NCBI GenBank assembly: GCA_012976225.1
Contig: JAAVVG010000006.1
Location: 992,001-1,056,000 of the forward strand
From: Golubevia sp. BC0850
Lineage: Eukaryota > Basidiomycota > Exobasidiomycetes > Golubeviales > Golubeviaceae
Length of the DNA stretch: 64,000 nt
Reading direction: 5' to 3'
Shown: one piece after another, positions 3,805 to 45,519 of the stretch
How positions within the stretch are numbered: position 1 is the stretch's first letter
Layout: the number at the start of each line of letters is the position of its first letter
Translations under genes and position numbers: made by a program
The notes under the pieces: generated by a model
Database searches by the model: none
What the model saw: only the letters and a program-made list of their open reading frames with translations
Told to the model about the DNA's origin: nothing

Positions 3805-4238
3805 GAAGCGGGTGAGCGATGTAATCGGCACAGCGTAGAACAAACAAATAGAAACTTTATGTTCGAGCTTCAAATTTCTGGGTTTTAGCTATTCAGCCTA
3901 TTCTCCCTGTCCTTCGCCCTATGGTTTGAAGATCTGTTCCACTCTGTCTCTTTTGCTTCCACTGCGCTCGCTCTCGTGAAGTCGTCAAACCACTAGCAAA
4001 ATGCAACAGCAGACCAATAGACAGATGAATCGATTGATTGATTGTAGTAGAGTAGACGAAAGAGAAGTCTAATTCTGAAAGTTCGATACAAAAACAGGAA
4101 CGGGCATACGATAGAAGGAGCAAAATGGAAAGGGGAGAATGTCTTTGAGTATTAGGGAAAGAAAGGGAAAGAAAAAGCGGAGGGGTATCTCTTGAAGGTG
4201 GGATTGATGAAGACAGAAGCTAGAAGAATCTCGATAAT
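3805..4238. other. Convergent 3' flanks, no gene seen
   Basis: This gap lies between the stop codons of the lactonase fusion (+) and the phospholipase D gene (-), so it holds two 3' untranslated regions. I see no further gene, repeat or RNA structure. Confidence 0.5.
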
Positions 4239-7200
4239 CTACAGGTAGATCGGCAAAGTCGTGTCGTTGACTTCGATACCTCTAGATCCCTTGGCGAGAT
4301 TCTCTTCTTCTAGGAAATGAAGAGGTAAGTTCACGAGACTTCCCTTGACGCTACCTAGTCTTTGCTTGATCCATTGAAGATCCATAGACATGTCAGCGAC
4401 ATGACCGGTCTTGATAGGTGGCTTTGGGAAGAATGAATCGTAATCCTTCCAGTTCTTGACCTTGTTCGAAGGAACAACTCTGAAAATTTCATCGTAGACT
4501 TCGGTGTTGTGGTCAGCTTGCTGCTTCCACTGCGAAATAGAACAAGAAAGATCGAGAAAGTGTCAGGAGGTATTCCAGTCAAATCGAATCTCGACTCCAA
4601 GTCGCGACGACTTCCTGCTTCTCTGCACTCACCATCTTCTCGACCTCATCGCTCAATGGATCTTCCACCAACTTCTCGTATTCATCCTCGATCTCAACAC
4701 TGTAGGACACGGCAGAGCGTCAAGGGTCAGTAGATTGACTGATTTTGAGAAAGAGAGATCTGAAACTCACCTTGGATTAGGATGAGGAGCCGGTCTCATA
4801 GCAGCAGTAGGATAGTTCTTTGAGGTGTTGGGGGTGCACTCTTGAGGATCGATCAGACCGAGATGTTGTCTCCAGAGGTGTCTTCTGAAAGAGGCCGCGA
4901 ACTTGGAAGCTAAGTACTTCTCTCCATTCATCTTAGACTCGAAAAGGTCTCGATCTTCGATGACCACTGCGACCTCTGAGTCACCATCCCCCTTCTGTGA
5001 ACGGTCGTTGAGGTTGGCTGATCCAATTAACACTGTTCGATCATCTACAATCATCAACTTGGAATGAATGTAGGTTTCCTGAGGAGGAGAAGAGAGAGAG
5101 AGGGGGCGACGTCAGGACCTTTTGACACTTTTGAAAGATCTCATCTTCCTACTCAGCTACCGCAGAAAATTCGCAGACCTCCTCAATTCTTCGGAGAACT
5201 CACTTCAGTAACGTAAGCCGCTTTCTCAGATTCTTCACTTCCATACCAAGGCTCATCCTTGGTGTCGGGCTGGCCATGAAGAATGTTCGAAGAAATAGAA
5301 TCACGAACGTTGTAATCGTCACGAGGAGCGGCTTGTTCTGCAAACGAAACAGGAGAATAAGGAGAACTTTGATTAGAGATTGCGATCGACCAAAGCACTC
5401 GACCAACAGACAACTACTCACGGAACTTGTTGATGATTTCTCTAGCTTCCTCCTCGCTGCTAGGCATAACCACCTCTTCAACCTTGGGAGGTTTCTTCTT
5501 TCCCTCTGAATCCAACTCTTCGCCCCCTTGAACAGGAACCTTGATAGCAACTTTCTGTCCACTGACATAGCCTTGATCTCCCAAGAATAATCTAGCACTA
5601 GCAACTTCAGCTTGATGATACGTAACTCCAGAAGTCTCTTCCATTTTCTTGATCATTTCAGGATCGTTATTAAGACGATCATAACCTCTTAGATGATAGA
5701 AACTGATGTATTCGTTAGGATCAACTCCAGCTTCTTCTACCATTTCAAAGATAGATTTTCCACCTCTATTAATCGATTTGTATTGATAAGCCATGATGCA
5801 TCTAATTCCAGCAGCTTCTGGAAGCTCTCCAGAGAAACAAGGGATGGTAGGGATAATCACCACAATCTTGAATTTCCTACCATCCTTAGCAGCTGATAAG
5901 ATCCTTTCAACCAAAGCTGCTCCAATAACGTTAACCACTTTCCCATCCTTTTGAGTGGAAGTAATGAAGAATTGATTCTCGATGTAGATGTAATGGTTTG
6001 CAGTTCTAATCAATTCGATGTAGGCATTTTGAATCGATTGTTCCTTGAGGATTCCTGACGACCAATCTGCTGAGGAACGACAAACCTGGACTGCCATTTG
6101 ACCTGCGTTTGGCGAATGGTTTCCGTGAGATGGATCTTCAGTTCTGTGATCTGGATGCCATGGATGAAGGAATTTTTCTCCTTTGGCGTGGAAGTAAGCT
6201 GTGTGAGGATGACGCTTGACTGAGTCGAAAGAATCGTGGACATCGTCTGCAGGATCAGCTCCGTGAGGGAAGGCTAGCAAATTGTAGTCCTTGTCTCCAC
6301 GGTACTTGAACTAAAGTGACAATTCAGAAGGGATAGAAGGAATGAAATCAGAGGACGGCGGCGTGGGGAGATGGGTAAAGAGATTCAATCTTCATCGATA
6401 CTCACTCTCTTGACGAAGTTCCACCTCTCAACGAAGTGGTGAGCTGATTACGAGGAAGGAGAATGAGATAATGAAATCAGCGCTTTGGTCAAGAGTTGAG
6501 CTTCATCTCGCTCTTCTCCAAAACGTCAAACTCACCAACATCGAGAACCGAAGGACCTCTCATCGTGATATGAACATCATGCCAAGGCATCTAAAGAGGA
6601 GAAAGAAAGGAGTATGAGATCAAGACATCAGCAAAGGTCGATCCGACTTTCAAGAATAAACGAACTTCCCTCCGCCCGCTTTCATCTCCGACCATACTCA
6701 CTCTCCCAACTTCTAATTTACTCTGTTGATTACTCATGAAGTCATCCACTTTCTGGAAGTCTTCTATCCTAGCATTGTTATAATCCTGTCCTGGAAAGAC
6801 AGTTCTCTCAAATTCAGTGGGATGACAATCACTAAAAGGATGACTTTGAGTATCCCATCTACCGAAGCAGATATCCAATCCTCCAATACAAGCACGTTCG
6901 TTGTCTACACAAACTAGCTTTTCGTGATGAGACCAGAAGAGAGTGACTTCTCCACCCAAATGATCCGGGTGACGGAAACATTTGATGTTAGGATGGAGGC
7001 CTTCTAGGTGATGTTTGGTGTGAGCTGAAGACATTGTCATTGTTTGAGTGACTTCTTTGTAGACTATGAGGAGGGAGGAAGGGAGGGGAGGAGATGGAGA
7101 AGGAGACCGATTAACAAGAGGCAACAAAGGAACTAGGAATGATAGCAAACTATCCATTTCCTTGTCCCGAGAAACGTCTTGACAGAGAAACAAGAAATTC

Positions 7201-9138: not shown

Positions 9139-9631
9139 TTATGGAGTGAGGTTTCCAGAGTTTCCTGAGGCGCTACCAAGTCCAAGGAGCGAGCCTACAC
9201 CGGCGAGTCCAGCACCAGCAGATCCAGCACCACTGAGAAAGGAAAAAAAGGGGGGGAGGTAGAGAAAAGTCAGAAGGGAGACTTCGTCTATGTTATTCAA
9301 GACTTTAATACTCACGCTCCACCTGCACCAGCCAATCCTAGAGAGAGGAGGGGAGAGGGAGAGGAAGAGAGAGGAAAAGACGACAGTCAGGCAACAGTGG
9401 GAAGGTCGCACTCATGAAATCTCCGTTCCCAATGCACTTACCTCCGTTTGAAGCTGATCCTGTAGCTCCGTTGTTGGCATTTCCTCCATTTCCTGAAGCG
9501 GAACCTCCGAAAGGAGCACCGATAGCTCCAGCGAGACCGGCGGCGGCGTTGCCTAGACCAGCTCCTCCTCCCAAGGCAGCTCCACCTCCGTTGCTGTTTT
9601 CGTGAGATAGAGAGAAGAAGAATAAGTGAAA

Positions 9632-9671
<40 letters not shown>

Positions 9672-10695
9672 AGAGGGAAAGTAAGGGAGGCGATGAACAA
9701 GACGTTAAGGATCAGGGGAGGAAGGCGACCTTTCTTCTGCTCTCGACCTTTTTGCACTCACGTTGAAGCAGAACCTCCATTACGCTCTTCTAGAGATCTT
9801 GGCAAGTTACCAGCGTTTCCGTTGGCACTTCCGAGTCCTAGCAAGCTTCCGACACCTTTGAGGAGAGAAGAGAGGAGGAAAGAGAAGAGAATTGGAGTCA
9901 GACAGCTGCTTGTCATGTCATCCCCTCACCCTCCCCTGCCAAATCCGTCTTTGGCTTCCTCTTTGATAACTGAACTTACCAGCTAATCCAGCACCAGCAT
10001 TACCGGCACCACTAGGAAAGGAAGGGGAGGGGAAGTTAGAGAAAAGTCAAAGGGAGACTTCGTCTAGTTTGTTTGGGATCTTAACACTTACGCTCCTCCA
10101 GCTCCTCCCAAACCTCCGTTGGAGGCACTGGAGGGGAAACAGAACGATAGTGGAGAAAAAGAAGAGAGAAGGAAGGCGAGGCAGGGGAGTCAGAACGAAG
10201 AACGACCTCGAGTCACCAGAGGTATTCCTCCTCTACTTCATTCTGTCACTCACCCTGCGTTGGCTCCGTTCTGGCTGTTGCCTCCGTTACCGTTTGCGAC
10301 ACCTCCGAATGGAGCAGCAAGAACACCAGCCAATCCAGCAGCTGAAAACATGATTCGATCATGAATCATAGGCAATGATTAGTATAGGTCATATAGATGG
10401 AGAAAGATGCGAAGGGAAAGGAAGGCTGAGACACTCACCAGCGTTTCCAGCTCCAGCTCCAGCTCCTAGACCGGCACCCCCTCCAGAACTAAGATGGTCA
10501 AAGCAACGAGAAGAACGAAAGAAAGGATGTTCAAAGAAGAGAGAGAGAGAGAGGAAAGAAAAGTAGGTGAGCAAGGGAAATCCAAACCAGGGGTGAGGCG
10601 ACGTCGACTTACGTGCTAGCACTACCACCGTTTGGGAGTGGGGCAGCAGCGACTAGACTGGCGAAAGCAGCAATGGCGATGATTGAGAATCTCAT
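9139..10695 (-). CDS. Secreted Gly/Ala-rich protein made of two tandem halves
   Basis: About nine short exons, nearly all ending in GTGAGT or GTAAGT donors. The start (10695) gives signal peptide MRFSIIAIAAFASLVAAAP and then LPNGGSAST. The mature chain is built of short Gly/Ala/Asn motifs: GGGAGLGAGAGAGNA, AAGLAGVLAAPFGG, SASNGGLGGAGGA, SGAGNAGAGLAG and VGSLLGLGSANGNAGNL. After a PRSLEER linker the series repeats: NGGSAST, NGGGAALGGGAGLG, LAGAIGAPFGG, LAGAGGA, SGAGSAGAGLAGVGSLLGLG, ending GNLTP at 9139. The exon ends match between halves (both copies break after NGGSAS-AC), so the gene doubled by tandem exon duplication. No enzyme domain is visible. A wall or extracellular-matrix protein is the natural guess but is inference. 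A TATA box lies about 100 bases upstream. Confidence 0.8.
9635..9668. repeat. (GA)17 microsatellite inside an intron
   Basis: A pure AG run of 34 bases lies in the intron between the two halves of the Gly/Ala-rich gene. On the coding (minus) strand it is a (TC)n run upstream of the acceptor, so it forms part of the pyrimidine tract. Confidence 0.9.
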
Positions 10696-13846: not shown

Positions 13847-16801
13847 TTAAGCCATGATCTTGCTCTTGATGCTCCTAGAGAAACGCCTAGTCATAGACAT
13901 CTTCTTGTCATCTCCGTTTCTAGCAGCGACTGGTGCCTTCTCTTCTTCAGCGGCAACGTGTCCACTTGCGTTTCCGTTAGTTTCGACAGCTAGGTCCTTA
14001 GCGTCAGCCTTCTCAGCTCCATCGACGGCCTTGGAAGTTTCCTTTTCACTGGCGACTGGAGCCTCGTGGAATTGATCGGTTTCCTCTGAGGCAGAAGCAG
14101 CGGCGACTGGAGCAGCAGCAGCAGCAACTGGAGCAGCTTCTTCAGCTTTAGATTCTGGTTCAGCTGCTGCTGGAGCTGCGGCTTCGGTTGGCTCGGAATG
14201 GACAGCGTCAGCTGGGACGGTTCCGGAGGCACCGAGCTCTCCTTCCAGTCTCATGGCGGTAGCCTATTAGAAAAAGGGTAAGTCGAGTAGAAATATGGGT
14301 CAGACGCGTTGAAACTTTGTCTGGAAGAGTGAATTAGACAAGATCTTTACTCACCTCATCTCCGTAAAGAGTAACCCAATCATCGTTCTCCAAAGCCTTA
14401 AGAGACTTGTCCAAGACTTCCTTTAAAGGCTTACCCTCTTCGATCTCTTTGAGTTCACGTTCCATGGTAGCCACACAGTCTTGAGAGAAGAGGAGGGGGA
14501 AACGGAAAAAAACTCGTCAGTAAGTATGAGTTGGACTCGTAGGATCTCACAAGTAGCTCACCTTTTCGACCAACGACGTGAACGATTTCGGTACCATCCT
14601 TTTGAGGGTAGACCCATCTGACCTTTCCTTCACCATCTAGGATTCCATTTCTGTGGTAGACAGTTAAACCTCTGGTGTAAGGTTCTTGCTTGTATTGAGC
14701 TAGACGAAGTCTCTTGGCGAGAATGGTACGATCATCGGTGAGTTTGTCACTAGAGAAATGGAGGTAGGAAAAGACAAGAGTAAGCTGTGATGATCTTTGC
14801 TTCTGTTTGTTCGAATGGCTTTCCGAGAATGGAGGAACCTTTTTCGACACTCACTTGTCTCCCTCATTCTTGGCCCAGCGCTGGGTAGTTGATTCCCATT
14901 CATCAGCAAGCTTCATGTAGTTGGCCCAAAGTTCCTCTCTCTTGGCGGTATCCTTTAGCTTGTCATTCTCTCCTTCCTTTGGTTCGATGAACTCGAAGTC
15001 TCCAGTAACATCACCTCCGATTTCTTCCAAGAGACGATCGGCTGGCACATTCTCAGCGGTGTCTTCAGCTTTCTTGGAGAATTGAACCTTGTTACGGACT
15101 ACTGGGTCGAGGAGAGGCCCAAGAATCTTCCAGCTAAAGGTAGTTAATTTGAAATTAAGGAGAAATTGGATCAGCTTTCGTTCACTTTCCGAGTGATCGA
15201 GCTCTTCCGCCCCTCTTTGCCATTGATACTCACATTCCAGAGAAGATCCAAGGAGCGTTATGAATGTAAAGCGTTCCAAGGGATTCTGGGTAGTAAGCCT
15301 CTAGACATTTGACAATCAAGAGAATACAACTCCAATCCATGTTTCGGAGCCCGAAACCAGTCAAGTCGAAGAAGAGAACGACTTTGTCATTTGGAGGTGG
15401 CATCATGGTTCTGAAACTCTCCATGGCGAAGAATACGTATTTGGACATTGAAGCACCTGGTTGGGCGAAGGTGAAATGCCTGAGGAAACAAACATTCAGA
15501 GAAGGCAAGTCGAGGTCAGACACTGACTCGGACATGTTTATTCCCACTCGTTCGATTTCATTTTCTATGAAAGACTGAGAATGTTTACTCACCTACGGAC
15601 TCTGATGTAACAGGTTGGGAAACCTTTAAGACCAGTTCCCAAAGCGAAAGTCTTTCCACTTCTTTGTTGTTCGAGAAACTTTTCGATGGAAGCATTTCCT
15701 AGATCTGTGTTGAGTTAAAACGATAGTAGAAGTGGATGCGAGTCAGAGAGATGTTTTATCGAAGGATCGGAGAGGAATTCGAAAATCAGGCTTCTTGAGG
15801 ACAAGAGGAGCAAAGATGAACTCACCTCCTTCTTCAGCTAGCTTTTCAACTCCATTGTCAAGACGCCACTTCATACAAGAAGCAAGCATGGCAATAGCAC
15901 GAGTGACATCCCACTGTTTGAATAAGAAGGGAAGGGAAGGGAAGGGAAGGGAAGGGAAAGGAAGGGAAGGGAAGGGAAGGGAAGGGAAGGGAAGGGAAGG
16001 GAAGGAAAGATTAGCACCCATAGTAGGAGATAGCGACATTCCATCATATCGTTCTCTCCCTTCTTCTCTTGAAATCTTCCCCCCTGCAGAACTTCTATCC
16101 TCAATCCAGATTTCCTCGCATCTACAGTGTTCCTTCCCCGAACTCTGCATCACCAAAAGCCCATCTACACCCAGAAGCCAATCTCACTCACCTTACGAGC
16201 ACGTAAGAATCTTAGCATACAGGTGTCTGGGGAATCGAACTTGCAGAATTTCCTGTGAGATGCACAAATGAGATAGAGTGGGTGTTAGGAGATGGAGAAG
16301 CTTTCGATGAAAAGATATGAGAAGAGTCGGCTACTAACCAGAAGGTATCTCTGAGAGCATCAGATCCGTATCCATCCAAGAGTTCCTTCAAAGCAGCTTG
16401 TTCTTCCTTTGCTTTGGCTTCATCCTTGGCTTTGTCATCCTCTAAACACGGGGGTGAGAGAAGAAGAGGAGAGGATGGATGACGAAACGAGTGATCCGGA
16501 AAAAGAGGTGACTTGGCATGAGGAAGAGGAACTTCTCTACCTGCTGCTTGATAGCAGAAAGGGCAACGCCAGATAAGTAAAAGTGAGGCTACTCACTTGG
16601 AATACCAGATTTCTTTGGATCGATCTCTTCCATAGCTTGGCCAGCCCCACCTGCAGGTGAAGCACCAGAGCCATTGCCTTTTGCTTTCGCAATGCAATCA
16701 AAGAAAGAGAGCCACATTTCCTTCAACTTGTCCTCTTGTTCTTTAGAGAGGTTTCCAACATATCCATCTAGAGTTTCGAACTTTTGGTAAGCTGAGAGGG
16801 A

Positions 16802-17526: not shown

Positions 17527-19969
17527 CTATCCTAGAAGATCGAAGTCGTCAACGTTGTTGCGAGCTTCAGCTCTGACTTGATCTCTGATCAAGTTGATCA
17601 AGTCAAAGTCATCGGCATCAACATCGACATCACGAGTAGCAATGTTCTTAACCACAGACCCAGCTCCGAAAGCAGCAGCAATAGCTCCTAGTCCCCATTT
17701 GATAGAAGCTGCAGAACTAAGTCTCTTCTCAACGTCGAGGTCCTCATCTAGGCCGTCTCGGGCTCGAATAGCATTGAAGCCAGAGATAATGGCAGCTAGA
17801 AGGGAGGAGAGCAAAAGGGGGTTGAGAAAGTGAAGTGAGATTGGAAGTCAGTATAGGTGATTCAAGTGTCGACAAGCAGGGTGGTTTCCTTTGGTTAGAC
17901 TCACCGATCATAGATCCATAATCAGCTTTTCCACGAGCTTCGAGACCGTTTGAAGAAGCCAACTCAGCGAGAGCGTCTTGACCTTCTTTTGTTGCGAAGT
18001 ATCCACCCGTAAAGGAGGCTCCCATTGCAGCTAGAGTTCCGGCAACTTTAGCATAGACTGGAACACTGAGTCTCTTCTCTGGGTCATTGAGGTCGCGAGA
18101 TTCGAGAGACTGTTTGAAAGAAGGAAGGGGGGGTCGGATGAGAATCTGTAGACCGGACATTGAAAGACGGACAAGGAATCAAAGACTCACTGCAAGCTTT
18201 GAAGCAAACTGTTGACCTTCTGAGGAAGCTAAGAACTCATCAGCAGCCTCTTTGGATCCGAACATTCCCTTGAGAACCTGATAGAAGACAAAGGGGAGCG
18301 GGAGAAGGGGGTCTCGTCCGTTAGTCAAGAGCAAGAACTTCTTCGAATCGAGGCTTCACTCACTGCTCCAGCCGTCAGACCGATCATGGCCGCTGCGTTC
18401 AATCTCTTTTGCGGAGAAGACTCATCACGAGTTTGGACCTGGAAAAGGAAACAAGGAAGAACAAATCGGGGGTAAGAACAAGCTGGCCCTAGAAAAGCAT
18501 CTGGGTTGAGACTCTTCATCAATCATCCTCTTCATCTGGTAGGACTTGATAAGAGTTTTTGAAAGCCATGATAGGTTTGAAGAAAGAAGCGTCAAAAGAA
18601 GAACTCACTCCGTAGTTCTGCTTGAACTCTTCAGCCTCCTTGATGTATCCGTTTCCTTTCAACCCATTGTAGATGGCCGTAGCAGCAAAGATACTTGCAC
18701 CGATACCTGGAAGTAGAGAGGGGGAGGAAGGGATACCCAAGTAGAGATTGCATGAGAAAGGCAGACCTTCTTGCCTTATCCCAGATAAAGCCATGCGCAA
18801 ACTCACCGGCAGCGTTGAGTCTTTTCTCAGAAAACTGGAGTTGAGGAGAGAGAGAGGAAATGATTCGAGATGGTGAGTGATCAGGGGTAGGGTAGGGGGA
18901 CCAGAGGAACTTGAAGAAGTCACAAGAAAAACTCACAACGTCATCATCTCTAGCTTCGACATCGTTGACTGCCAGTTTTGAGACAAAGTCTTGACCTTCT
19001 TGAGTGGCTAAGAAGTCTTGACCTTCCTTGGTAGTAAACCCTGTACAGTGAGAAAGTAGAAATGGAAGGTAAAGTTGTGGTCAGCTCAGGAGCAGAACCG
19101 AACCAGGACCAGGGATCGAAAGCTATGAGGTTTGGTGTCATCAAAGCCACACTCACATCCAACAACAGCTGCCGCTGCTCCAGCAGCTGCTTTTCCCCAT
19201 GAGAGTCTCTTTTCTGGAGATTCGAGCTCAGAGTCTGAGTCAAGATCTCTAGATTCAATGGAGGCTAGCTTAGAGGCGAACTCCTTTCCTTGGTCGGTAG
19301 CAAGGAACTCATCTGCAGCTTCCTTTGAACCGAAGATTCCTTTGAAAACCTGAAAAGAAGAAGAAAAGAGATGTAAGCCGGTGAGTTCACGATGGGCCAA
19401 AGGGAAGGAGTCTTTGGCTTTGACAATGAACTACTCACTGATCCAGCAGTCAGACCAATCATCGCGGCTGCATTCAATCTCTTTTCTGGAGAAGAATCTT
19501 GAACCTGGAAGAGACGAAAGGTGGAAGGAAAAAGAATTAGGACTGACTTAGACTTCAATCGAATGCTGAGAGAGAGACTTTATGGAGCACTCACGCCGAA
19601 TTGTTGTTTGAATTCTTCAGCCTCCTTGATGTATCCATTTCCCTTGAGGCCGTTGTAGATGGCAGTGGCCGCGAAGATGCTTGCACCGATACCTTTTGGA
19701 AGGAAAGAAATTAGATATTGCATGAGAAAGTGAACTTTTCTCAGACGAGATCATTTGCAAACTAACCAGCTGCGTTGAGTCTCTTGTCCACGACGACCTC
19801 TTCACGCTGTTCCTGTCAAGGGGAGAGTTGATAGGGCGGAAAGGTCAGGAGGAGCTGAACGCTTTGAAGAAAAGAAGATTCTGGATCATCGGAAACTCAC
19901 CATGATAGGAGCCGCAGATGCCAAAGAAACGACAAAAGTTAAAGATAGAGCAATTTTGGAGAAGTGCAT
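17527..19969 (-). CDS. Secreted multi-peptide precursor with seven Lys-Arg cleavage sites
   Basis: Twelve exons splice in frame into about 446 residues. The start (19969) gives signal peptide MHFSKIALSLTFVVSLASAA. Seven KR sites follow, each preceded by an acidic or Ser/Pro stretch (VVVDKR, SSPEKR, ESPEKR, VFSEKR, SSPQKR, NDPEKR, LDVEKR) and each followed by LN or LS. The released units would be about 44-79 residues, in the order A (LNAAGIGASIFAATAIYNG), B (LNAAAMIGLTAGSVFKG), C (LSWGKAAAGAAAAVVGW), A', B', C', D (LSSAASIKWGLGAIAAAFG). Each opens with a small-residue hydrophobic helix-like segment. B and C share a KE..DFLA..G..F.SKLA block. The layout is that of fungal Kex2-processed repeat proteins, whose products include pheromones, repellent-type wall peptides, RiPP cores and lytic peptides. 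Which applies here is unknown. Intron positions repeat between the two A-B-C sets, so the gene grew by tandem exon duplication. Confidence 0.82.
18609..18706 (-). repeat. Second copy (A') of the duplicated A-peptide exon
   Basis: This 98-nt exon encodes IGASIFAATAIYNGLKGNGY and the following EAEEFKQNYG. It has the same length and splice phases as the exon at 19595-19692 and 30 of 32 identical residues, but 14 further codons differ silently. Confidence 0.85.
19595..19692 (-). repeat. First copy (A) of the duplicated A-peptide exon
   Basis: This 98-nt exon is the partner of 18609-18706. It encodes the same peptide with only Q-to-N and F-to-Y changes near the end (KQQFG against KQNYG). Confidence 0.85.
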
Positions 19970-21448: not shown

Positions 21449-22194
21449 TCAGGTAGCCGACTTGTATTGATCAGTTGCTTGGATCAACAAGTTCATGATA
21501 CCTGGCTCTTTTGCTGAATGACCTGCGTCAGGAACCAGGTGGAAAGCGGCAGAGGGAAAGGCTTTATGAAGAGCGAAAGCAGTGGTGCAAGGGCAGACGA
21601 CGTCGTATCTTGGAAAAGGGGTGAGAAGAGAAGAGAGGCATGAGGACAGAAGAGAAGTCGGAACGAGAGGAGAAAAGGAGAGATGAGACAAGTTGTGAAT
21701 TAAGACAAGACCCAAGACAGAATTTTCGACTGAATGCTTCAGCTGCTCCTGTTCCAGTACTGGTAGGATCGACTTCTATCCCAACTATTTTCTCCGTCCT
21801 ATCAAATGACTCACCTTCCTTGAACGATAGTTGTAGGGATATCTCTAATCTTATCAATATTCTCCTTCTTCAAAAGCTGACCATCTTCCATCCAGCCAGC
21901 ATTAGTGAAATAATGATTTTCGATCCGAGCGAATTTTTTAGCCCAATCAGGATCATCGCCTCTTTTGATATGTTCCTCATCTAAGTACAATTTGGAAGTT
22001 GCATTTTCCCAAGTACTCCATTTTTTAGCAGCTTCTAATTTAACCTCTTCATCTTCTCCTGTCAATCTTTTGCCATAGGCTTTGATGAGATCTCCTCTTT
22101 CAGCTTCTGGGATGAATTCAAGGTAGGGTTGGAATTGTTCAGGGAAAAGATGAGAAGCCCCATCTTGATAGAAAAAAGAGAGTTCTGATTTTCT
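21253..22194 (-). repeat. Inverted repeat arm A (resident copy)
   Basis: These 942 bases recur as the reverse complement at 31744-32686. The coding part translates identically, and only a handful of changes are seen in the 3' flank. Arm A belongs to the complete peptidase gene, so it is the probable source. Confidence 0.93.
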
Positions 22195-23331
22195 CAAGGT
22201 GAAAATCCCACGAAGGATTAGGGCTGAAACTCTGGAGGGATGGGTTTGTGAATAGGCTAGAGATAAAGTACTTCCCCAACTTCCTCCAAAGACATGCCAT
22301 TTTTGAATCTGCGGGGAGAGAAATAAAAAGGGTTACTGTCAGATTGGGAAACGTTGTGATTGCCAGAAAGCAGACTGGGGGGGACGAGGGACTTTGCTCG
22401 CTTTGGACTGGGTGCTCTGAAGGTCGGGGCCGACGTGAGTTGAGTTTGTGTTCTCTGTTCCACTTACCTCAAACTTTTCTCTTAGTTTCTCGATGTCCGC
22501 CACTAAATCCCAAGTGGTGTTGTTGTCGAGACTTGCAGCTCTGTCGAATGAAAAAGAGATCAGAAGAAAGTTCGCTTTCCTTTAAAGATGAGGAGGACCG
22601 AGAACTCACGGGGTTGATTTACCAGCTCCACGCTGATCAAATGTGAGCACTCTGTAGTGGGAAGGGTCAAACCATCTCTGAGAGTGTATTGAGGGGATTC
22701 AAATAAAATTTGAGTGGATCCTGGATAGACAGGACGGTCTTGGGAGAGGCAATACTCACACGGTCATCGCTTGATACTCCTCCTCCTGGACCTCCATGAA
22801 GGAACACGGCTTGAATTTCAGAAGCGAAGACAGAGAAGGAGGGAAGAGGGAAGTGAGCTGGCCACCCACTCCATCTCCAAAGGCTCTATCAGTCCCCACT
22901 TGCCAGCCAGCCTCTGACTCCTCGCCAATCCTAAGCAATACCAGTTCTTTAAGCTCAGAATTCAAGCTTAAATACTTTCTCGAGGACTCACCTGGCCACC
23001 CATCTTTCTTCCCCGACCATTCCCAGGAGATCCGGTGCCCAGAATCTCCTACGTCCAGCATTCCACTATCATAAGGCTCTATTTGAGGGTAGAGTTTTCT
23101 CAAGGCGTCCTTTGGAGAATTGAGAGAGCGAGCTTCAACTGAATAGTCTGGAGTAGGTTTTGGAGTAGAAGAAGAAGCCACTGCTGGAGCTGGTGCTGCA
23201 GATGGAGCCGATTGAGCGGCTGTAGTTGAGGTAGAGGCAGAAGCAGTTGGTTGTTGCTGTTGAGATGAAGTAGTTGACTTCTTTCCACCCAAAGACAATC
23301 TCTTGGTTAACTTGGATAATGGATTGGACAT
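21449..23331 (-). CDS. Prolyl aminopeptidase (proline iminopeptidase)
   Basis: Six exons. The start is the ATG at 23331 (MSNPLSKLTKRLSLGGKK); further upstream the frame continues only to a non-ATG codon. A Ser/Gln/Ala-rich lead of about 80 residues precedes the enzyme. The enzyme is an alpha/beta hydrolase of the peptidase S33 family. It shows the oxyanion loop HGGPGGG, then FDQRGAGKSTP, then the nucleophile elbow GGSWGSTLSLAY, then a cap domain, then the Asp in GRYDVVCP and the His in PDAGHSAKEPG. All three triad residues are present. The family removes N-terminal proline from peptides. The disordered lead with KK/KR runs is unusual compared with the roughly 310-residue family norm. The 3' half of the gene lies in a near-perfect inverted repeat. 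It shares a 155-base promoter with the GH5 gene. Confidence 0.9.
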
Positions 23332-23486: not shown

Positions 23487-26400
23487 ATGGTGAAAGTCCC
23501 AACTGAATCTCCCATCACTGGAGAGAAAGGTAAGTTTCAACTCTCAATCCGAACCCACCTCTCAATCTCATGATTCTCATCCCACCCTCCCCTTTCCTTC
23601 TCTTCTTCTGCAGTTGCACCCAATTACCTTCATTCCTCGGATCTATTCTTCAGAGATACTTCAGGTAGAGCTGTCCTTCTGAGAGGAGTCAACTTATCAG
23701 GTTCATCCAAAGCTCCCATCGGTCAGCCATCTCAGAAATTGGAGGGGTTCTGGGAGAAAGCAGAGAATGGCGGCGAAAGTTTCATAGGACAACCTTTGAA
23801 TCTACAAGATGGAAGTGCAGACCTTCATTTGACAAGATTGAAAACTTGGGGATTCAATTCTTTCAGATACATCTTTACTTGGGAGGCTTTGGAACATCAG
23901 GGACCGTGAGTCTTGAGGGGAGGTGGAGATGGAGATGGGGCGATATGATTAGACGGAGCGGCGAGGTAGACGCTCAAGTTGAACGATAGAGTCTTGGAGA
24001 AGATTTCCAAAGGAATGGAAGGATGATAAGAGCTACTTGAGAGCTTGGGTGGAGTGCTCGAGCTACCTACCTCTTAGAGCCAGAACTCATAATCTCCGCC
24101 TCTCTTTCTCCCCCCCCCCTCTCTCCCTCTCCTCAATAGTGGGAAATTCGATCACGAATTCATGGATTACACAGTAGCTGTTCTATGCAAGATCAAGGAG
24201 TACGGTTTCAAGGTCTTCATGGATCCACATCAAGATCTGGTGAGTCTAGGATCTTTCTCTCTTTTCAAGAGATGGGCGGTAGGCGTGTCTTGCTGACCAC
24301 ACCGCTCACTCAAACTCCCCTTATCTCCGTTATTCACAGTTCTCTCGATTCACAGGAGGTTCAGGAGCTCCCTACTGGGTTCTACCAGCCTGTGGAATGA
24401 ATCCTAGGAACTTCACCGCCACTCAAGCTGCCTTCCTCCACTGCGAATGGCCCTCAGCCGAGAACCCTTCTCCAATAGACTTTCCAGACATGCTTTGGGC
24501 TACCAATTACACGAGGTTAGCAGCTGCAACCCTATCAGTTTTATTCTTTGCTGGAAGAGATTTCGCTCCCAAATGCATCATCGATGGAAAGAACATTCAA
24601 GATTATCTTCAAGATCATTATTTCAATGCCATTGCTGAATTAGCTAAGAAGATCAGAGATTCTAAAGACAAGTTGTTCGAAGATTGTGTGATTGGTTGGG
24701 ATTCTTTCAATGAACCTAATCAAACTTATTTGAGCTTGGAAGATCTTAATGTCATTCCTAATCATTGGCAATTGAAGAAAGGACCTATGCCTACTCCTAT
24801 TGAACAGTTTAGATTGGGGACTGGGATGAAACAGACGATTACGAATTGGGTCTTTGGTGGAACTGGACCGAAGAAAAGTGGAGTCGTCGTCGTAGATCCG
24901 AAAGGGAAATCGATTTGGATGGACGCTGAGATGGATTCGAGGATAGGAGGTTCTAAGTGGGGATGGGAAAGAAGCTCAGATTGGCCTCTTGGTCAGTGTG
25001 TCTGGGCAGGTCATGGAGTTTGGTCGCAAGACAATGGACAGCTTTTAAGACCAGATTACTTCAAGAAGTTCGGTGGTCCAAACAATGGAACTAAACCTCT
25101 AGATTTCGCCGAAGACTACTGGCTTCCTCATTGGAGAGGTTACGAAGCGACTCTACGACCTATTCATAAAGATGGAATTATGTTTTTACTTCCTCCAGTT
25201 TTCGAGCCTCCTCCAAGAGGTCTTACAGATCGAGATCTCAAGAACAGAGCTTGTCTCAGCTCTCATTTCTACGATGGGTTAACTCTGATTACCAAACATT
25301 GGAATTGGTATAACGCTGATGCAGTAGGAGTCTTGAGAGGGAAATATCCGGGTGTTATGTGGGCGATTAGAGTTGGAGCTAAAGCGGTGAGGAAATGTAT
25401 GAGAGATCAATTGGGTTACTTAGCTGCAGATGCCAAGGATTCAATGGGAAAGTATCCGACTATGATTGGAGAATTAGGAATCCCGTACGATTTGGACAAC
25501 AAGAAGACCTACTTCGGAGATGGAAAAGGAGGCAACAAGGGAATGGGAGACTACTCTTCTCAGACCTTAGCCATGGACGCAAGTCTCAATGCCTGTGATG
25601 GACCTAATCTTCTCAGCTACTCTCTTTGGACCTATTGCTCGGATAACACTCATACCTGGGGAGACGGATGGAATGGAGAAGATCTGAGTATCTGGAGTCT
25701 AGACGACGTCAAGGGAGGAGGAAGTGGGAAAGACCTGCTGGGATCGAGAAGCCCTTCGCCTGCCTCTCTTCAAGAGTCGAGGGATCCGAGTCTCTCTGGG
25801 TCTGGCTCAGACTCATCAACAGGTACCTCAACTCCGACCAAGAGGACAAATGAAGCTCAAATTCGACCGTCCTCTTCCTCCTCCTCCTCCTCATCCGCTT
25901 CTAGCTCTCGACTTCCACCAGCTCTGGTGATGACCTCCGACGGAAAAGACTCTGCTGCCTCTCCGCTTACTTTGGAACCAGCAGAGCTTGCTTCATCTTC
26001 AGTCTCGGTCAATTCAAATGCTTCGGAGAGGTTAAATCCAGGTCCTCTTTTCTCTACCTCTAACAACTCGAACTCTTCCCTCAAGGAACCTACAGTACCA
26101 CTCCTCACGAACGGTAGCAGATCAGCAACAGCTTTCTGTCGACCTTACCCGGTCGCTACTGTTGGAACTCCGGTGAACATCGATTTCGACATCAAATCTT
26201 CGGAATTCATTTATTCTTTTGAGGTGGATCAGACTGACACGAGTCAAGAAGAGGACGAAGAGGTTAGGAACTATAGAGCTATGCTTGGAGAACCTGAATA
26301 CGGAATGGATGACGGATTGATGAAAGTTCCAATCAAGATCTACTTACCTTTCATTCATTACGCTAAAGACGCGCTCCTAGGAGCTGCTTCTGGGAATCAG

Positions 26401-27309
26401 TTCGACTGTGGAAAGCAAGCTCCTTCGACTTACAAAGCCAAGAAGAACGTCAACAGTGTCAAGAGAAGAGGTTCATCCGCCAGTATGGCTTCTAATAACT
26501 CGGATGCGGTCGATGGAATGTCCAAGCTTAGACTCACTTCTTCAGGCTTCTTACCTCCTAGGGGGCCTTTCTACGATGGAGGAGAAGAGAGGAATAGCTC
26601 GACTAGCAGTCTAGGATTCGGAACTACCAAGAAATCTACCAAGAACAAGCTGGCTCTTAAACATAAGATCGGAGAAGTCGTTCTCAAGACGAAAGGGTCG
26701 AAATCCAGTCTCAAGAGTTCAAGAAGTAGAAAGACAAGTGGAGATCTCTTGGCAGTTCCAGTTGATGGTCGAAGTAGATCCGATTCTACTTTTTCTAACA
26801 TTTCAACTGGAGGTGCTCCTCATAATCCAACTGCTTCAATGTTAGCAGAGTTAGATTTGGAACTGGATTTGAACGTTGAATTGTCAGCTGGAGATTATGT
26901 TGTTAGAGGTCAATATCTTTATTGGTATCTTCCAAAAACTGCTTCTCCAGATCCAGAACCAACTTCAAATTCAACTTCAACTCCTAAACAATCTCAATTC
27001 GCAGCTGCCACTTCTGCTGTAGATTCTGAAATCTCGAAAGACTTAAGTTCGGAAGAAGTTCAAATCAATCATCAAGCTCCAGATCCTCCAACTTTAACTC
27101 CAGATGAAAAAGGAAATGAACCACCAGTGATTCCTGTTACTATTGCCGTCATTCCAACTCAAGCTGTTAGGAATCAAGATGGTAGTGCTAAGACTTCCGT
27201 TTTGACTAGAACTAGACATACCATTAGAGTAAAGAGAGCTAGTGGTCCGATGGAACATGAGAAAAGTGCTAGCGCTTGGGATTTGTTGATGAGTTTGGGA
27301 ATGATTTGA
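23487..27309 (+). CDS. Sterylglucosidase/endoglycoceramidase-like GH5 hydrolase
   Basis: Four exons, the first only [14 protein letters not shown]. The last (from about 24340) is very long. The N-terminal half is a GH5 barrel: [60 protein letters not shown]. The acid/base Glu is in [10 protein letters not shown] and the nucleophile Glu in [14 protein letters not shown]. This arrangement matches fungal sterylglucosidases (Cryptococcus Sgl1/EGCrP2, yeast Egh1), which cut glucose from ergosteryl glucoside. No signal peptide is seen, consistent with an intracellular enzyme. A long Ser-rich region (around 25740-26110) and a second low-complexity region (around 26430-26800) interrupt the C-terminal beta-sandwich ([18 protein letters not shown], then [18 protein letters not shown]). 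Acting on another glucosylated lipid is possible. Confidence 0.88.
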
Positions 27310-31601: not shown

Positions 31602-31704
31602 AGATGAAACTGACTGTTGGAATGTTGGAACACATCTAGATGTCGAAAGCCCATGTTGACTGTGAGTGAAATCCAGGAGACAAGATCATAAGCTTCCGAA
31701 AGAA

Positions 31705-31734
31705 TGAAAGAGAGAAAAGGCGGCAAAGAAACTG
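31705..31734 (+). repeat. Left 30-base direct repeat flanking the inserted copy
   Basis: Thirty bases containing AAAAGGCGGCAAAGAAACTG recur at 32698-32727 with a single mismatch. The two copies bracket the peptidase-derived segment and are absent from the parent peptidase locus. Confidence 0.85.
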
Positions 31735-31743
31735 TAAGCGTGA

Positions 31744-32686
31744 AGAAAATCAGAACTCTCCTTTTTCTATCAAGATGGGGCTTCTCATCTTTTCCCTGAA
31801 CAATTCCAACCCTACCTTGAATTCATCCCAGAAGCTGAAAGAGGAGATCTCATCAAAGCCTATGGCAAAAGATTGACAGGAGAAGATGAAGAGGTTAAAT
31901 TAGAAGCTGCTAAAAAATGGAGTACTTGGGAAAATGCAACTTCCAAATTGTACTTAGATGAGGAACATATCAAAAGAGGCGATGATCCTGATTGGGCTAA
32001 AAAATTCGCTCGGATCGAAAATCATTATTTCACTAATGCTGGCTGGATGGAAGATGGTCAGCTTTTGAAGAAGGAGAATATTGATAAGATTAGAGATATC
32101 CCTACAACTATCGTTCAAGGAAGGTGAGTCATTTGATAGGACGGAGAAAATAGTTGGGATAGAAGTCGATCCTACCAGTACTGGAACAGGAGCAGCTGAA
32201 GCATTCAGTCGAAAATTCTGTCTTGGGTCTTGTCTTAATTCACAACTTGTCTCATCTCTCCTTTTCTCCTCTCGTTCCGACTTCTCTTCTGTCCTCATGC
32301 CTCTCTTCTCTTCTCACCCCTTTTCCAAGATACGACGTCGTCTGCCCTTGCACCACTGCTTTCGCTCTTCATAAAGCCTTTCCCTCTGCCGCTTTCCACC
32401 TGGTTCCTGACGCAGGTCATTCAGCAAAAGAGCCAGGTATCATGAACTTGTTGATCCAAGCAACTGATCAATACAAGTCGGCTACCTGAAAAGTTCCGTC
32501 GTGATGTTCTAAACTATTTCCATCTTTCGAACGATCTGAAAGTTCCTCTCTTCGATCTCGGGGCGTGCTTGAAAGCGATAATTGTTTGAAAAGGGAGAAT
32601 CGATGTGTAGAGTACAGGATCTGTTGAGTTTGTGAGGTTGAAAGTTTGAAAGAGCGATGATGTCGAGAAGGCGAGAAGGTTTAGAA
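31744..32686 (+). pseudogene. Truncated inverted copy of the peptidase gene (arm B)
   Basis: This segment is the reverse complement of 21253-22194. It begins inside the codons for LRKSELSFF and keeps the cap domain, the last intron and the final exon with the Asp (RYDVVCP) and His (DAGHSAKEPG). About 200 bases of 3' flank follow. The start, the oxyanion loop and the GGSWGS nucleophile elbow are missing, so it cannot make an active enzyme. The retained reading frame is undamaged, which together with the near identity points to a very recent copy or ongoing gene conversion. The intron is kept, so the copy was DNA-mediated. Confidence 0.92.
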
Positions 32687-36467: not shown

Positions 36468-39400
36468 ATGGGACTCACTACTTCCACTCTAATCAGCAAT
36501 CCTCACTCCTACGCTTCCCCAGCTGGAGAAGAGCCAAAGGAATACGACTATATCATCATCGGTGGAGGAACAGCAGGTCAGTATTACATTCTAACGTCTA
36601 TTCCAATTCAGAGGCTTTGAAATTGAGACGGTCATCGAGGAATGGAGGAGTTGCCTCGATCCCGGAGCAAACTGATAACTGACACTCAACCACACTCAAC
36701 CTCTTCTCTCAGGATGTGTGCTAGCCAATCGTCTCTCTGAAGATCCAAATGTTTCTGTCCTAGTTCTCGAGGCAGGTGAGTTCTCCATCTGATGTCCTAG
36801 ACGGAGTAAGAGAGCTTCAATTGAGGTCCTCCTTGTTACCCGCAACCAGGCTAACCCCACACTTTTTGAATCTGCCTCTACTCACGCAGGTGGAACGAAC
36901 AACGTCTTGGAATCCAAAGCTCCAGTAGCTTTCACCAAACTATTCCACACTGATAAGGATTGGGATTGTGAGTAGGCAGCGAAGGTGTAACGTTGGAGGT
37001 GTCATAGGGATTGAAGAGCAGGATAAAGCTTAAACGGGAGTAGAGAATAGTCTCAACAGCAATACCGAAGCGAACTACAATGGGAATGGAAGCAAGAGCT
37101 TTTGGATCGCAAGCAAATAGAGCTACCGACCGACTTTTTAGAGCTACCGGTTGATTTTGCCTTGGTCCTACCCTTTCCTACTCCTCGTCGATCGTAGACT
37201 ATACCACTCCTCAGAAGAACGTCGATGGTCGTGAACAATTCTGGGTGAGTTTTAAGAAAGCTCGGCTTATCCCTGAAGAGGAGGAAAGGTCGTCGCAGGC
37301 TCCCAAACTGAACCCCGACTTCCCTCCCTTCTTCACAGCCTCGTGGAAAGCTCTTGGGAGGTTCAAGCTCTATCAACGCTATGATGGCGTGAGTAGTGTT
37401 TCTAGATTTACAAATCTCTTTGTCCTTTGAACGATGCAGAATTCGAGAAGGAAAGGTGCTCACTGTCCCTCTTTTTGCCCTCGCCTTTCCTTCGATTTAC
37501 CCTCATCAATAGTCACCAAGCCGCTCCAAGTGACTATGATGAGTGGGAGCAAGAGTTCGGCTGTAAAGGATGGGGTTACGATTCCATGAAGCCCTACTTC
37601 CGCCGCATGGAAGGCTTCACTGCCAATCCAAACAGACCAGCCATCGACCTCAGCCACAGAGGTCAAGAAGGATTCATCAGAACTGGATACTCGTGAGTCG
37701 CGTCCGCCATAATTCTCAGGAGATCGAGCCATCTTTTGCTGATCTTTTTGTCACCTCTCCAACTCTCCCTCCCCTTCGCTCAGCCACCTCTCTGAGATCG
37801 GAGAGCAGGGGTTCATGAAAGCTTGTGAGGCTGTTGGAATTCCTGTCAATCCAGATCTCAACACTCATGCAGGTACAGAAGGAGTCGGTGAGTTATCTGG
37901 GCTTTGAGTGGTGAAGCATCATGACGAAGATCTGACCCGAACTTTTCTCTTTCTCTTCTCCTTCTTTAACCTCAGGCCGCATTATCACCTACATTGATCC
38001 AAAGACAGGATCAAGATCAAGCGCCGCTACTGCTTATCTCCCACCTTCAGTCCAAGCTCGCAAAAATCTCAAGATCGCCATCGAGGTTCGCGTGCAAAAC
38101 ATCGTCTTCGATGAATCGGGAGCCGAACCAGTCGCTACTGGCGGTGAGTATCCGCTCGCTAATCTCACTCCTTCTTGCACCTTTCGAACTTGAACTGAGC
38201 TATCTCTGCCTTTTGGCTTTCGATCTTCCAGTCAACATTCAGACCTACGAGGGTGGTCCGACTTTCTCTGTCAAAGCCAAGAAGGAAGTGATTCTCTGTG
38301 GAGGAGCTATCGGAACTCCTCAAGTCTTGATGCTTAGTGGTATCGGACCAGCTGCTGAACTCAAGAGACATGGAATCAAGCCAGTCAAGATCAATGAGAA
38401 CGTTGGACAGAACATGAGAGATCACTTCTGCTGTAGTGGAATCGTTTGCAAAACCAGCTCTGGAGGATCTGTGGGTTCCATTCGCATTCCCACTTGACAG
38501 CTTGTTCAGTATAACTTCATCCTATTTGGATGCTGACTCAATTCCCTCGCATCCCAAAATCTCTCTTCGTCTCTTCTCCCCCCCTTTTCTTTTCTTCCAT
38601 TTCTCTTTTTCATCTCTCCTACTCTTCTTCTCCTCTAGTTGGACTACTTAGGCAGTGATATCAAGTCTATTCCAGCTCTCATTCAATGGTTGGCCTTCGG
38701 AACTGGTCCTATGACCTCGAATGCCGGTGAAGTCGCTGCTTTCATCAGATCGAATGACTCAGCCGTCTTCAAGTCAAAATACCGCACGTCCAAGTTCCAT
38801 GGCTCGCTACAAAAAGGTCCAGACATCGAGATTATCGCCACTCCTTTGACCTACAGAGATCACGGGGCTACAGCCTCTCCCAATGGAGAAGGCACCATGT
38901 CTCTCGTTCCAATCGGTTTACGTCCTCAATCCGTTGGAAGCATCAGCCTTAAGTCGAAAAATATTTGGGACAAAGCTGTCATCGAACCTAACTACTGGTC
39001 AGATGCAGGAGACAACGATAGAAAGGTTCTTCTGGAAGGTATGAGAGTCTGTCTAGATATCATTCAACAACCAGCTCTGACGAAGTACTTCGATCAGAAC
39101 GTTCCAAAATCAGATGACATCAACAACTTCTACTGGCCCTTCTGTGCAACTGACATCAACAAGATTACAGACGAACAGCTACTAGAATATATGCCCAAGA
39201 CTTCTTTCACTCTTTATCATCCAGTCACTACTGCTAGAATGGGAACCAATGAGAGCAACAGTGTCGTTAATTTCGAAGATCTCAAGGTTTGGGGAGTCAA
39301 AGGTCTAAGAATCGTCGATGCCTCGATTTTCCCAGAACAGATCGCAGGGCATCCTACCGCTGCTGTAAGTAATCTCACGGGCCTGGTTTGAAGATGGAAG

Positions 39401-43773: not shown

Positions 43774-43950
43774 GGGTTTCAAATTTCAAGTCGAGATGAT
43801 TTGAGGCTGCTTTGATTGGCCATCACTCTGCAATCTAGCAGCCTAACCGTATCCTGTTCATTCATCATTCGAATTATCAAGATTATCAAGAATATCAAGG
43901 ATTGAATCAACTGACTCAATTCATCAGCATCAGCGTCGGCTTCCAATGAA
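43774..43950. promoter_or_regulatory. Short bidirectional promoter, Ser/Asn-rich gene / PER1
   Basis: A 177-base gap between divergent starts. No motif is recognised with confidence. Confidence 0.4.
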
Positions 43951-45519
43951 ATGATTCTGTCAAAGTCAGCTTCACCTTTTATCTCAATCTTCTCTCTTCC
44001 ACTCCTTGCACTTCTCCTGCTGTTCAACTTTCCAACTTCAATCCTCTGTTCAATAGGAGACAAATCACCAGAATATCAACTTTGCACTTCTTCCTGCTTT
44101 CAAGATTCCTGTTCTTCAAATTCACCGATCGATGATGGAACTTCGATTCCCTTCTCATCTTCTTCTCATAAGCTACCTTTCTACCTTAGAATCACCAGTT
44201 GGAACTGTCAAGATGATTGTAAATATCACTGCACTCATAGAGTCACCAATGAAGCAATAGCAACCGTTTCAAGAATCAAAGAGCAAGTCATAAGGCAGGT
44301 TGAAGCAATAGAGTTAAAAAAGGTAAAACATTCAAATCCAGGTGGAATCGATCGAGATAGGCTGTTGGATTCGAAAGAGAAGGAACAGCTGATCAACAAA
44401 ATGATACAAGATGAGTTAAAAAACCTTAGAAAGGTTCAAAAACAAATGGTACAATATCATGGCAAATGGGTTTTTGTTAGGTTTTTAGGTGCTCAAGAAC
44501 CGATGAGTGTCCTTTTCTCTTTACTCAATTTATCAGTCAACTTTTTATTCTTCTTTAGAATTGATAAAGAGATTTCAACCAACTTTCCATTAAAGAGGGT
44601 CTATATGGTTCATTGTTTGATTTCAATCAATGCTTGGATTTGGTCTTCAGTCTTTCATACAAGGGACAAAAATCTAACTGAAATCTTGGATTATTTTTCA
44701 GCTGGTGCAACAGTTTTGAGTAGTTTTTTCTTTACAAGTTGTAGAGTTTTTCAATTGAGTCCAAGAGACCAAGTTTTCAAACTTTTGAGAATGATTTGTT
44801 TAATAGCTATCATTCTTCATTGTAGTTATTTAAGTATAGGAAGATTTGATTATTCTTATAACATGATTGCCAATATCACTGTTGGAATCTCTCAAACTCT
44901 GCTCTGGTTGGCTTTCAGTTTGAATCCTAAAAGGTTTAGCAAAAAGTCGATTCTTCAAAAGGGATCTGAAAGAGAATTAACCAGAAAGAAGGATGAAACA
45001 ACCAATCCTTTCTCTTCAACTTCAAATACTTCTTCAACATCAACTTCAAACTCCTCAATTCCTTATCCCACCTCCTTACTCTCCTCTCTCCTCCTACTCC
45101 TCCTCTTAACCCTTCTATCAACTTCCTTTGAACTTTTCGATTTTCCACCTTTCTTAAGATTACTAGATGCTCATTCTTTATGGCATCTCTCAACAGTTCC
45201 ACTCACTTACAAATGGTATCAATTCTTGATCCAGGATTCCAATCATCTAGTTCAAAACCATCTTTGGCAGGACGGAGAACTTGGGGAGGAGAGGAAAAAA
45301 CAAGATGAAAGGATTAGAAAAACCTTACAAGGTTCCGTTAAAAAAATCTTTAGGAATAAATGGATCAGATTGGTTGGGAATGAAGGATTTAGGATTGGGA
45401 AAAGAGGAAAGGATTGGTTGGAGTTGAAAAGTGGGGTTAGGATTGGTTGGGCTGATGAAGTTGGGAGAGAGGGGATTCCCTTGAGTGCTGATGAGGAAGA
45501 AAGGAAGAGAGTGGTTTAA
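43951..45519 (+). CDS. PER1: PER1/PGAP3-like GPI-anchor lipid remodelling protein
   Basis: A single-exon gene of 522 residues. A signal peptide (residues 1-34, SIFSLPLLALLLLFNFPTS) is followed by a Cys-rich luminal part (CTSSCFQDSCSSN, SWNCQDDCKYHCTHRVT) and then seven or so membrane spans. Family marks are YHGKWVFVRFLGAQEPMSVL, SLLNLSVNFLFFFR, NAWIWSSVFHTRDKNLTEIL followed by DYFSAGATVL, and near the end LLDAHSLWHLSTVPLTYKWY with its conserved His pair. In yeast and mammals PER1/PGAP3 removes the sn-2 acyl chain from GPI anchors in the ER or Golgi. The protein is longer than the usual 320-360 residues: it has a charged insertion after the Cys-rich region (VSRIKEQVIRQVEAIELKKV onward) and a long charged C-terminal tail. 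The codons here are more A/T-rich than those of its neighbours. Confidence 0.92.
   Translation: MILSKSASPFISIFSLPLLALLLLFNFPTSILCSIGDKSPEYQLCTSSCFQDSCSSNSPIDDGTSIPFSSSSHKLPFYLRITSWNCQDDCKYHCTHRVTNEAIATVSRIKEQVIRQVEAIELKKVKHSNPGGIDRDRLLDSKEKEQLINKMIQDELKNLRKVQKQMVQYHGKWVFVRFLGAQEPMSVLFSLLNLSVNFLFFFRIDKEISTNFPLKRVYMVHCLISINAWIWSSVFHTRDKNLTEILDYFSAGATVLSSFFFTSCRVFQLSPRDQVFKLLRMICLIAIILHCSYLSIGRFDYSYNMIANITVGISQTLLWLAFSLNPKRFSKKSILQKGSERELTRKKDETTNPFSSTSNTSSTSTSNSSIPYPTSLLSSLLLLLLLTLLSTSFELFDFPPFLRLLDAHSLWHLSTVPLTYKWYQFLIQDSNHLVQNHLWQDGELGEERKKQDERIRKTLQGSVKKIFRNKWIRLVGNEGFRIGKRGKDWLELKSGVRIGWADEVGREGIPLSADEEERKRVV

Follow-up and report, generated by a model that had tools for sequence, protein, structure and literature searches.

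What is encoded by the intron-rich gene on the minus strand of this stretch of Golubevia sp. BC0850 DNA (64,000 nt, the window), and what might become of its product? Re-splicing of the minus strand reproduced the gene as it had been annotated on a first pass, in its coordinates, strand, 12 exons, seven Lys-Arg (KR) sites and unit order A-B-C-A'-B'-C'-D. The gene runs from 19969 to 17527, and in a GT-AG reading its exons (19969-19901, 19812-19767, 19692-19595, 19504-19439, 19349-19157, 19040-18937, 18834-18807, 18706-18609, 18438-18364, 18277-18191, 18109-17905, and 17795-17527 including the stop codon) join into a 1338-nt coding sequence for 445 amino acids. The 11 introns are all GT-AG and 74-170 nt long, with GTGAGT as the donor in ten and GTTAGT in one. 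A gene finder trained with this coding sequence returned the model exactly, which is partly circular, and the same finder trained without it gave nine of the 12 exons identically and chose other splice sites for exons 2, 3 and 12, yielding 385 amino acids and five KR sites. The incomplete agreement of the finder trained without it, together with a model built without transcripts, could speak for a gene-model artefact or a pseudogene. The closest paralog, L028 (C61:720.4-723.3k), was located exon by exon in a translated search, and splicing by the family-trained finder gave it 12 introns. Eleven of these equal those of the precursor in place and phase, and the remaining one duplicates the last. 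The retention of 11 of 11 introns in a diverged paralog and a module dN/dS of ∼0.1 leave an artefact very improbable.

The precursor is under selection on its protein sequence. In the comparison with L028, the NG86 dN/dS values for the seven unit pairs are 0.055, 0.104, 0.101, 0.325, 0.266, 0.182, and 0.018, the last of these being unit D with 2 nonsynonymous changes in 62 codons. The pooled modules give a dN of 0.041 and a dN/dS of 0.10 (301 codons), the pooled spacers a dN of 0.127 and a dN/dS of 0.166 (90 codons), which indicates weaker constraint than in the modules, and the signal and propeptide part a dN/dS of 0.142. Within the precursor itself, A versus A' gives 0.049 (dS 1.19) and B versus B' 0.062 (dS 2.12), ratios that rest on saturated or nearly saturated divergence.

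The predicted chain opens with a putative signal peptide, called by pattern (MHFSKIALSLTFVVSLASA, 19913-19969), and a short propeptide (APIMEQREEVVVDKR, 19780-19912) that is split by intron 1 and ends with the first KR (19785-19780). Seven units follow on the minus strand: A (LNAAGIGASIF...DSSPEKR, 19478-19779), B (LNAAAMIGLTAG...IESR then DLDSDSELESPEKR, 19206-19477, with a monobasic boundary Arg codon at 19250-19248), C (LSWGKAAAG...VEAR then DDDVFSEKR, 18820-19205, Arg codon 18951-18949), A' (LNAAGIG...VQTR then DESSPQKR, 18403-18819, Arg codon 18429-18427), B' (LNAAAMIG...LESR then DLNDPEKR, 18071-18402, Arg codon 18097-18095), C' (LSVPVYAK...LEAR, then a further module and an acidic spacer ending DVEKR, 17722-18070), and D (LSSAASIKWGLG...NIATR then DVDVDADDFDLINLIRDQVRAEAR then NNVDDFDLLG, 17530-17721, whose C-terminal tail is common to several paralogs). 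The further module inside C' (GKADYGSMIAAIISGFNAIRAR, 17932-17758) is split by intron 11 and is also present in the paralogs L028, L029, L035, and L040. Without KR, the units measure 44 (A), 59 (B), 54 (C), 47 (A'), 53 (B'), 78 (C'), and 64 (D) residues.

The KR sites are far from a chance outcome of composition. Each of the seven is followed by Leu and then by Asn (four sites) or Ser (three sites), as had been claimed at the outset, and when the chain, minus its first 19 residues, was shuffled 20,000 times, KR occurred 1.25 times on average (maximum 6) and KRL 0.10 times (maximum 3), against seven observed for both; in the same part of the chain, RR, KK, and RK are absent. This excess supports the initial proposal of a KEP-type precursor from which Kex2-type cleavage would release several peptides. 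Likeness between units was also scored by shuffling, with z values of 39.7 for A/A', 33.6 for B/B', 11.4 for B/C, 12.6 for C/B', and 10.0 for C/C'. B, B', and C are thus mutually alike (z 11.4-33.6), and near-identical copies occur in pairs only. The remaining pairs are weak, with z of 0.4-4.0 for the A-types versus the others, 2.8 for B/C', 2.3 for B'/C', and 0.0-1.9 for D versus all; the highest of these, A'/B' (z 4.0), has a score of 36 against a shuffle maximum of 37. One or more of the units could be hormone- or pheromone-like ligands with the rest serving as spacer, as KEPs include pheromones in the available portions of the literature (PMC6339444, PMC7329392) and unit D is nearly invariant relative to L028. 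Such a signalling role is improbable, since the units are far longer than alpha-type pheromones (9-24 residues) and no short core is repeated identically in the precursor.

A common layout underlies the units: a hydrophobic Gly/Ala-rich segment, Lys-Glu-Ala/Gly (KE[AG]), a second half, Glu-x-Arg before Asp, an acidic spacer, and Lys-Arg before Leu. In an alignment of 21 B/C- and related-type units, chosen by eye, the Lys-Glu pair is the sole invariant; ten A-type units retain a YNGLKGNGY-KEAE-like core, and a third module type (RGK-DYG...FNAIRARD) is present in eight copies. The segments that precede KE (KN in unit D) are 20-27 residues long in all seven units of the precursor, with a net charge of +1 and an Eisenberg mean hydrophobicity of 0.44-0.55. 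The membrane-active-looking N-terminal helices of the first-pass annotation are therefore borne out in their hydrophobicity but not in amphipathicity, the helical moment being low (0.05-0.25) in all seven. Likewise, in six tested units the halves after KE did not exceed their shuffles in amphipathicity (p 0.46-0.83), and the net charge of these halves is negative in five of seven units, 0 in A', and +2 in D. AlphaFold gave helices at low confidence, the mean pLDDT being 56.7 for P0003, a database protein modelled from a seven-row alignment, and 48.3 for the last exon of the precursor.

A second cut may separate each peptide from its acidic spacer. In six of the seven units, all except A, the second half closes with an Arg followed by Asp or Gly (with a hyphen at the boundary, ESR-D, EAR-D, QTR-D, ESR-D, EAR-G, and ATR-D), and the same position is dibasic (EKR, ERR, or QKR before Asp or Gly) in the paralogs L041 (three units), L042, L043 (one of two units), and L046; in L058, which lies outside the unit alignment, the spacer boundary reads VEKR-D. 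Because the site is dibasic in some paralogs, the acidic residues lying between both cuts probably form a spacer that is removed, one candidate free form being DLDSDSELESPE. Cleavage at the boundary Arg would give peptides of 47 (B), 47 (C), 41 (A'), 47 (B'), and 46 (C') residues, alongside 44 for A with its KR trimmed, and would divide unit D into 30 residues, an acidic fragment, and the tail. In place of the proposed 44-79 residues (44-78 for the KR-to-KR units), the mature size, given the site Glu-Ser/Ala/Thr-Arg before Asp, is probably nearer 41-47 for A to C', a regularity that was spotted after the fact. A mechanical rule that took the first Arg boundary in 66 KE[AG] modules classed 33 as monobasic, 25 as dibasic, and 8 as absent, where some of the dibasic cases are the unit's final KR and some of the monobasic cases an incidental Arg.

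The enzyme for the first cut has a candidate gene. Matches to the S8 and P-domain families lie side by side on C5 (266.5-268.0k), and the spliced prediction, incomplete at the N-terminus, contains DDG, HGT, and GTSAAAP, which we take to be kexin motifs, followed by a hydrophobic stretch and a tail. In a search that read the genome exon by exon there was only one P-domain match, and one putative kexin locus was thereby recognised. For single-Arg cleavage, several products of mushroom KEPs expressed in Pichia appear to end at a single Arg in the available text of PMC9769878, and PMC2515848 yielded nothing on such cutting beyond a reference.

The precursor does not stand alone: 25 related genes, itself included, were modelled in the Golubevia sp. 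BC0850 genome. A genome search with the precursor protein gave 64 matches at E ≤ 1, spread over many contigs, and further searches gave 23 matches with L041 and 40 with a piece of L035 (E limit 1 each), and 11 with L054 and 16 with L058 (E limit 0.01 each). From these, 23 and then 7 regions were fetched (30 loci), along with a stretch of the window itself that was left aside, and the 25 final models are the precursor and 24 from 23 loci; L030, L033, L044, L045, L047, L050, and L057 stayed outside the set because the model was partial or wrong, was excluded by rule, or was not obtained. L057 was a weak match from the outset (E 0.155), and the matches at C7:555.0k and C7:121.8k lie outside the fetched regions. 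By crude rules, the N-terminus is signal-like in 19 of 25 models and the C-terminus LLG-like in 15 of 25, the weakest models being L049, L055, and L056. The crude signal-peptide rule was failed by L031, L036, L046, L048, L049, and L055; L031 is signal-like by eye, and in the other five the model starts may be wrong. KE[AG] is found in 25 of 25 models, a count that proves nothing because it is partly our own selection rule. Many unit types occur across the family.

KR is again in excess across the family, with 75 sites in the 25 models against 17.6 expected from composition; Leu follows 43 of the 75 and Glu precedes 51. At least one KR is present in 24 of 25 models and at least three in 15, with nine models having one or two and one having none. 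In L040, for example, a lone KR accompanies three modules whose only boundaries are single Arg residues, so that some members would depend on monobasic cleavage or remain joined. KR-poor members such as L040, and hydrophobic segments that can be read as membrane segments, would suit an uncleaved secreted or membrane protein of helical modules. This is, however, an unlikely account of the precursor, as KR is far above chance there and always KRL, and with KR before and acidic residues after each hydrophobic segment, successive segments could hardly alternate in topology.

L028 carries a 384-bp tandem copy of its last cassette (4067-4828, 98.7% identical), and a database protein that is 98% identical to L028 (P0001) ends without this copy, which suggests either that unit number varies between strains or that the assemblies differ. 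L036 and L037 (C55:1054.8-1055.9k and 1081.0-1082.2k) form a duplicate pair with almost identical B and C units and more divergent A and D units. Their overall dN/dS is 0.324, and the pattern hints at conversion or at shifting constraint at the ends.

Database searches agreed with the first-pass annotation that the precursor fits no recognised family. Four Pfam families matched at E 0.019-0.097, all far below the cut-off and taken as chance, as were the best matches in the PDB, designed helical proteins (E 0.15). A profile of the A unit (unit A, 19779-19478) also matched interferon gamma in the PDB over 19 residues (E 0.0063), probably a chance resemblance between helices. In the protein database, the precursor query, limited to the 8000 candidates with the most words in common, retrieved P0002, which corresponds to the precursor itself (98%), and P0001. 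Profile A1 gave 12 protein matches, 10 of which share ≥97% identity with loci of the Golubevia sp. BC0850 genome, and profile A2 gave one, P0015. Among P0001-P0014, 12 of 14 match the fetched loci and the window at ≥97%; for P0003 and P0010, the best matches listed among the fetched loci are at 76% and 72%, and these two may belong to a close relative or be paralogs outside the fetched loci. No clear relative outside Golubevia sp. BC0850 appeared in the three protein searches, and the collections are probably poor in intron-rich spliced fungal genes. In the literature, six motif strings of the family were not found, and a search for a multigene family of such precursors returned nothing. A RiPP reading gained no positive support; a genome search for UstYa (DUF3328) gave no match, but its control was silent too.

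The genes around the precursor, which encode a GH5 C-terminal domain (24283-27306), a GMC oxidoreductase (38639-39388), Per1 (43915-45516), and GH9 (56244-57245), have no obvious link to it, and Rfam and tRNA scans of the window found nothing. The same alpha/beta-hydrolase sequence (GASHLFPEQFQPYLEF...) occurs at 21811-23003 (minus strand) and 31640-32127 (plus strand), possibly as a partial copy, and a simple purine-rich repeat with a KGREGKGREG frame on the plus strand lies at about 15915-16010. The highest codon adaptation among the 16 window genes (0.603) belongs to a predicted protein of 194 aa at 9139-10695 (minus strand), which is signal-like at its start and Gly/Ala-rich thereafter. 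The precursor is third (0.488), which is moderate; the genes that make up the reference set, EF-1alpha, EF-2, and actin, reach 0.72-0.77.

Taken together, the gene probably encodes a secreted, kexin-cut polyprotein that releases surface-acting peptides of ∼41-47 residues from excised acidic spacers, within a family of at least 25 models that shuffle modules. Kexin would cleave the secreted precursor behind each Lys-Arg to yield a series of peptides, each consisting of a hydrophobic Gly/Ala-rich helix, Lys-Glu-Ala/Gly, and a polar half, and a second cut at Glu-x-Arg before Asp would remove the acidic spacer, which probably keeps the hydrophobic peptide soluble or masked in transport. The released peptides would most likely act at surfaces, either coating the wall or interfaces as repellents do or inserting into the membranes of neighbours; among a wall coat, membrane action, and a signal, we lean towards surface action. 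A wider view, to which we give somewhat less than an even chance, is that of a hitherto undescribed, lineage-specific superfamily that shuffles hydrophobic-helix modules among at least two dozen precursors, whose two-step processing (kexin at KR before Leu, then a mono- or dibasic cut at Glu-x-Arg before Asp that would free an acidic, chaperone-like spacer) would yield combinatorial surface or membrane peptides.

The surface action favoured here could take two forms. In a repellent-like form, the peptides would assemble on the wall or at an air-water interface into a hydrophobic or adhesive surface tuned by the paralogs. This form is entertained as a real, if tentative, possibility, in keeping with the hydrophobic segments, the strong constraint between the precursor and L028, and the Rep1 peptides of 35-53 residues in the available text of PMC4617103, which are close in size to the inferred 41-47. 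Against it, the Rep1 repeats are described there as amphipathic, the precursor's segments are hydrophobic with AlphaFold helices at low confidence, and the codon bias is weaker than would be expected for a very abundant coat protein. The other form, in which the peptides would insert into membranes of a host or of competing organisms, as antimicrobials or in the manner of candidalysin, is rather doubtful. Hydrophobic segments of this length, the many unit types, and the cationic amphipathic segments of L041 and L043, with moments of 0.50-0.57 and a charge of +2 or +3, are consistent with it, as is the number of KR sites in Ece1p; however, the units of the precursor are not amphipathic, most of their second halves are net negative, and the strong constraint between paralogs (dN/dS 0.018-0.325) is a poor fit to a toxin in an arms race.

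Little is known of what KEPs do. Knockouts of kep genes in Coprinopsis cinerea had no detectable phenotype in the available text of PMC9769878, and the presence of many related precursors in one genome is a possible reason why single kep deletions may be silent. The family also offers natural variation for mapping which parts of the units matter, and the roles of the spacer and of single-Arg cleavage are testable.

Known systems provide several points of comparison. KEPs, as characterized in the accessible parts of Le Marquer (2019) and Umemura (2020), carry a signal peptide and three or more repeats delimited by Kex2 sites, and the published criteria, as far as they appear there, are at least four fragments between KR/RR sites and repeated sequences of no more than 100 aa. 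The precursor resembles them in its putative signal peptide and its several KR-separated units, seven KR sites and lengths of 44-78 aa being within these bounds, and the kexin that the KEP plan implies has its candidate on C5. Yeast-like basidiomycetes reportedly have KEP peptides that exceed the 9-24 aa class in length. Unlike the usual KEP, the precursor combines several kinds of unit (A type, B/C type, D, and the DYG module): in the 2019 survey, one motif type was present in 1114 of 1193 KEPs and two or three in 79. Basidiomycete strains have a mean of 5.30 KEPs, and the richest of 1461 strains, a zoopagomycete, has 43; 25 related models, counted by our own rules, are therefore many, with a parallel in the KEP surveys.

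By description only, and from partial texts, the precursor resembles Ustilago maydis Rep1 (PMC4617103) as a basidiomycete polyprotein with Kex2 sites and peptides of a similar inferred size. The Rep1 peptides are Kex2-released, are described as amphipathic, and form amyloid-like fibrils, whereas the precursor's units combine a hydrophobic segment with a KE[AG] half. Similarly, Candida albicans Ece1p (271 aa) has seven KR sites, as the precursor does, and gives eight peptides, including a 31-residue amphipathic toxin (available text of PMC12153327), from which the precursor differs in its low helical moments, with the higher values confined to the L041 and L043 units. Ustiloxin-type RiPP precursors share the putative signal peptide and Kex2 sites; in contrast to them, the units here are 44-78 aa long, with at most two near-identical copies and no short, highly repeated core. 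The precursor is thus ordinary in its plan, which is of the KEP type, and new in its family and in the design of its units.
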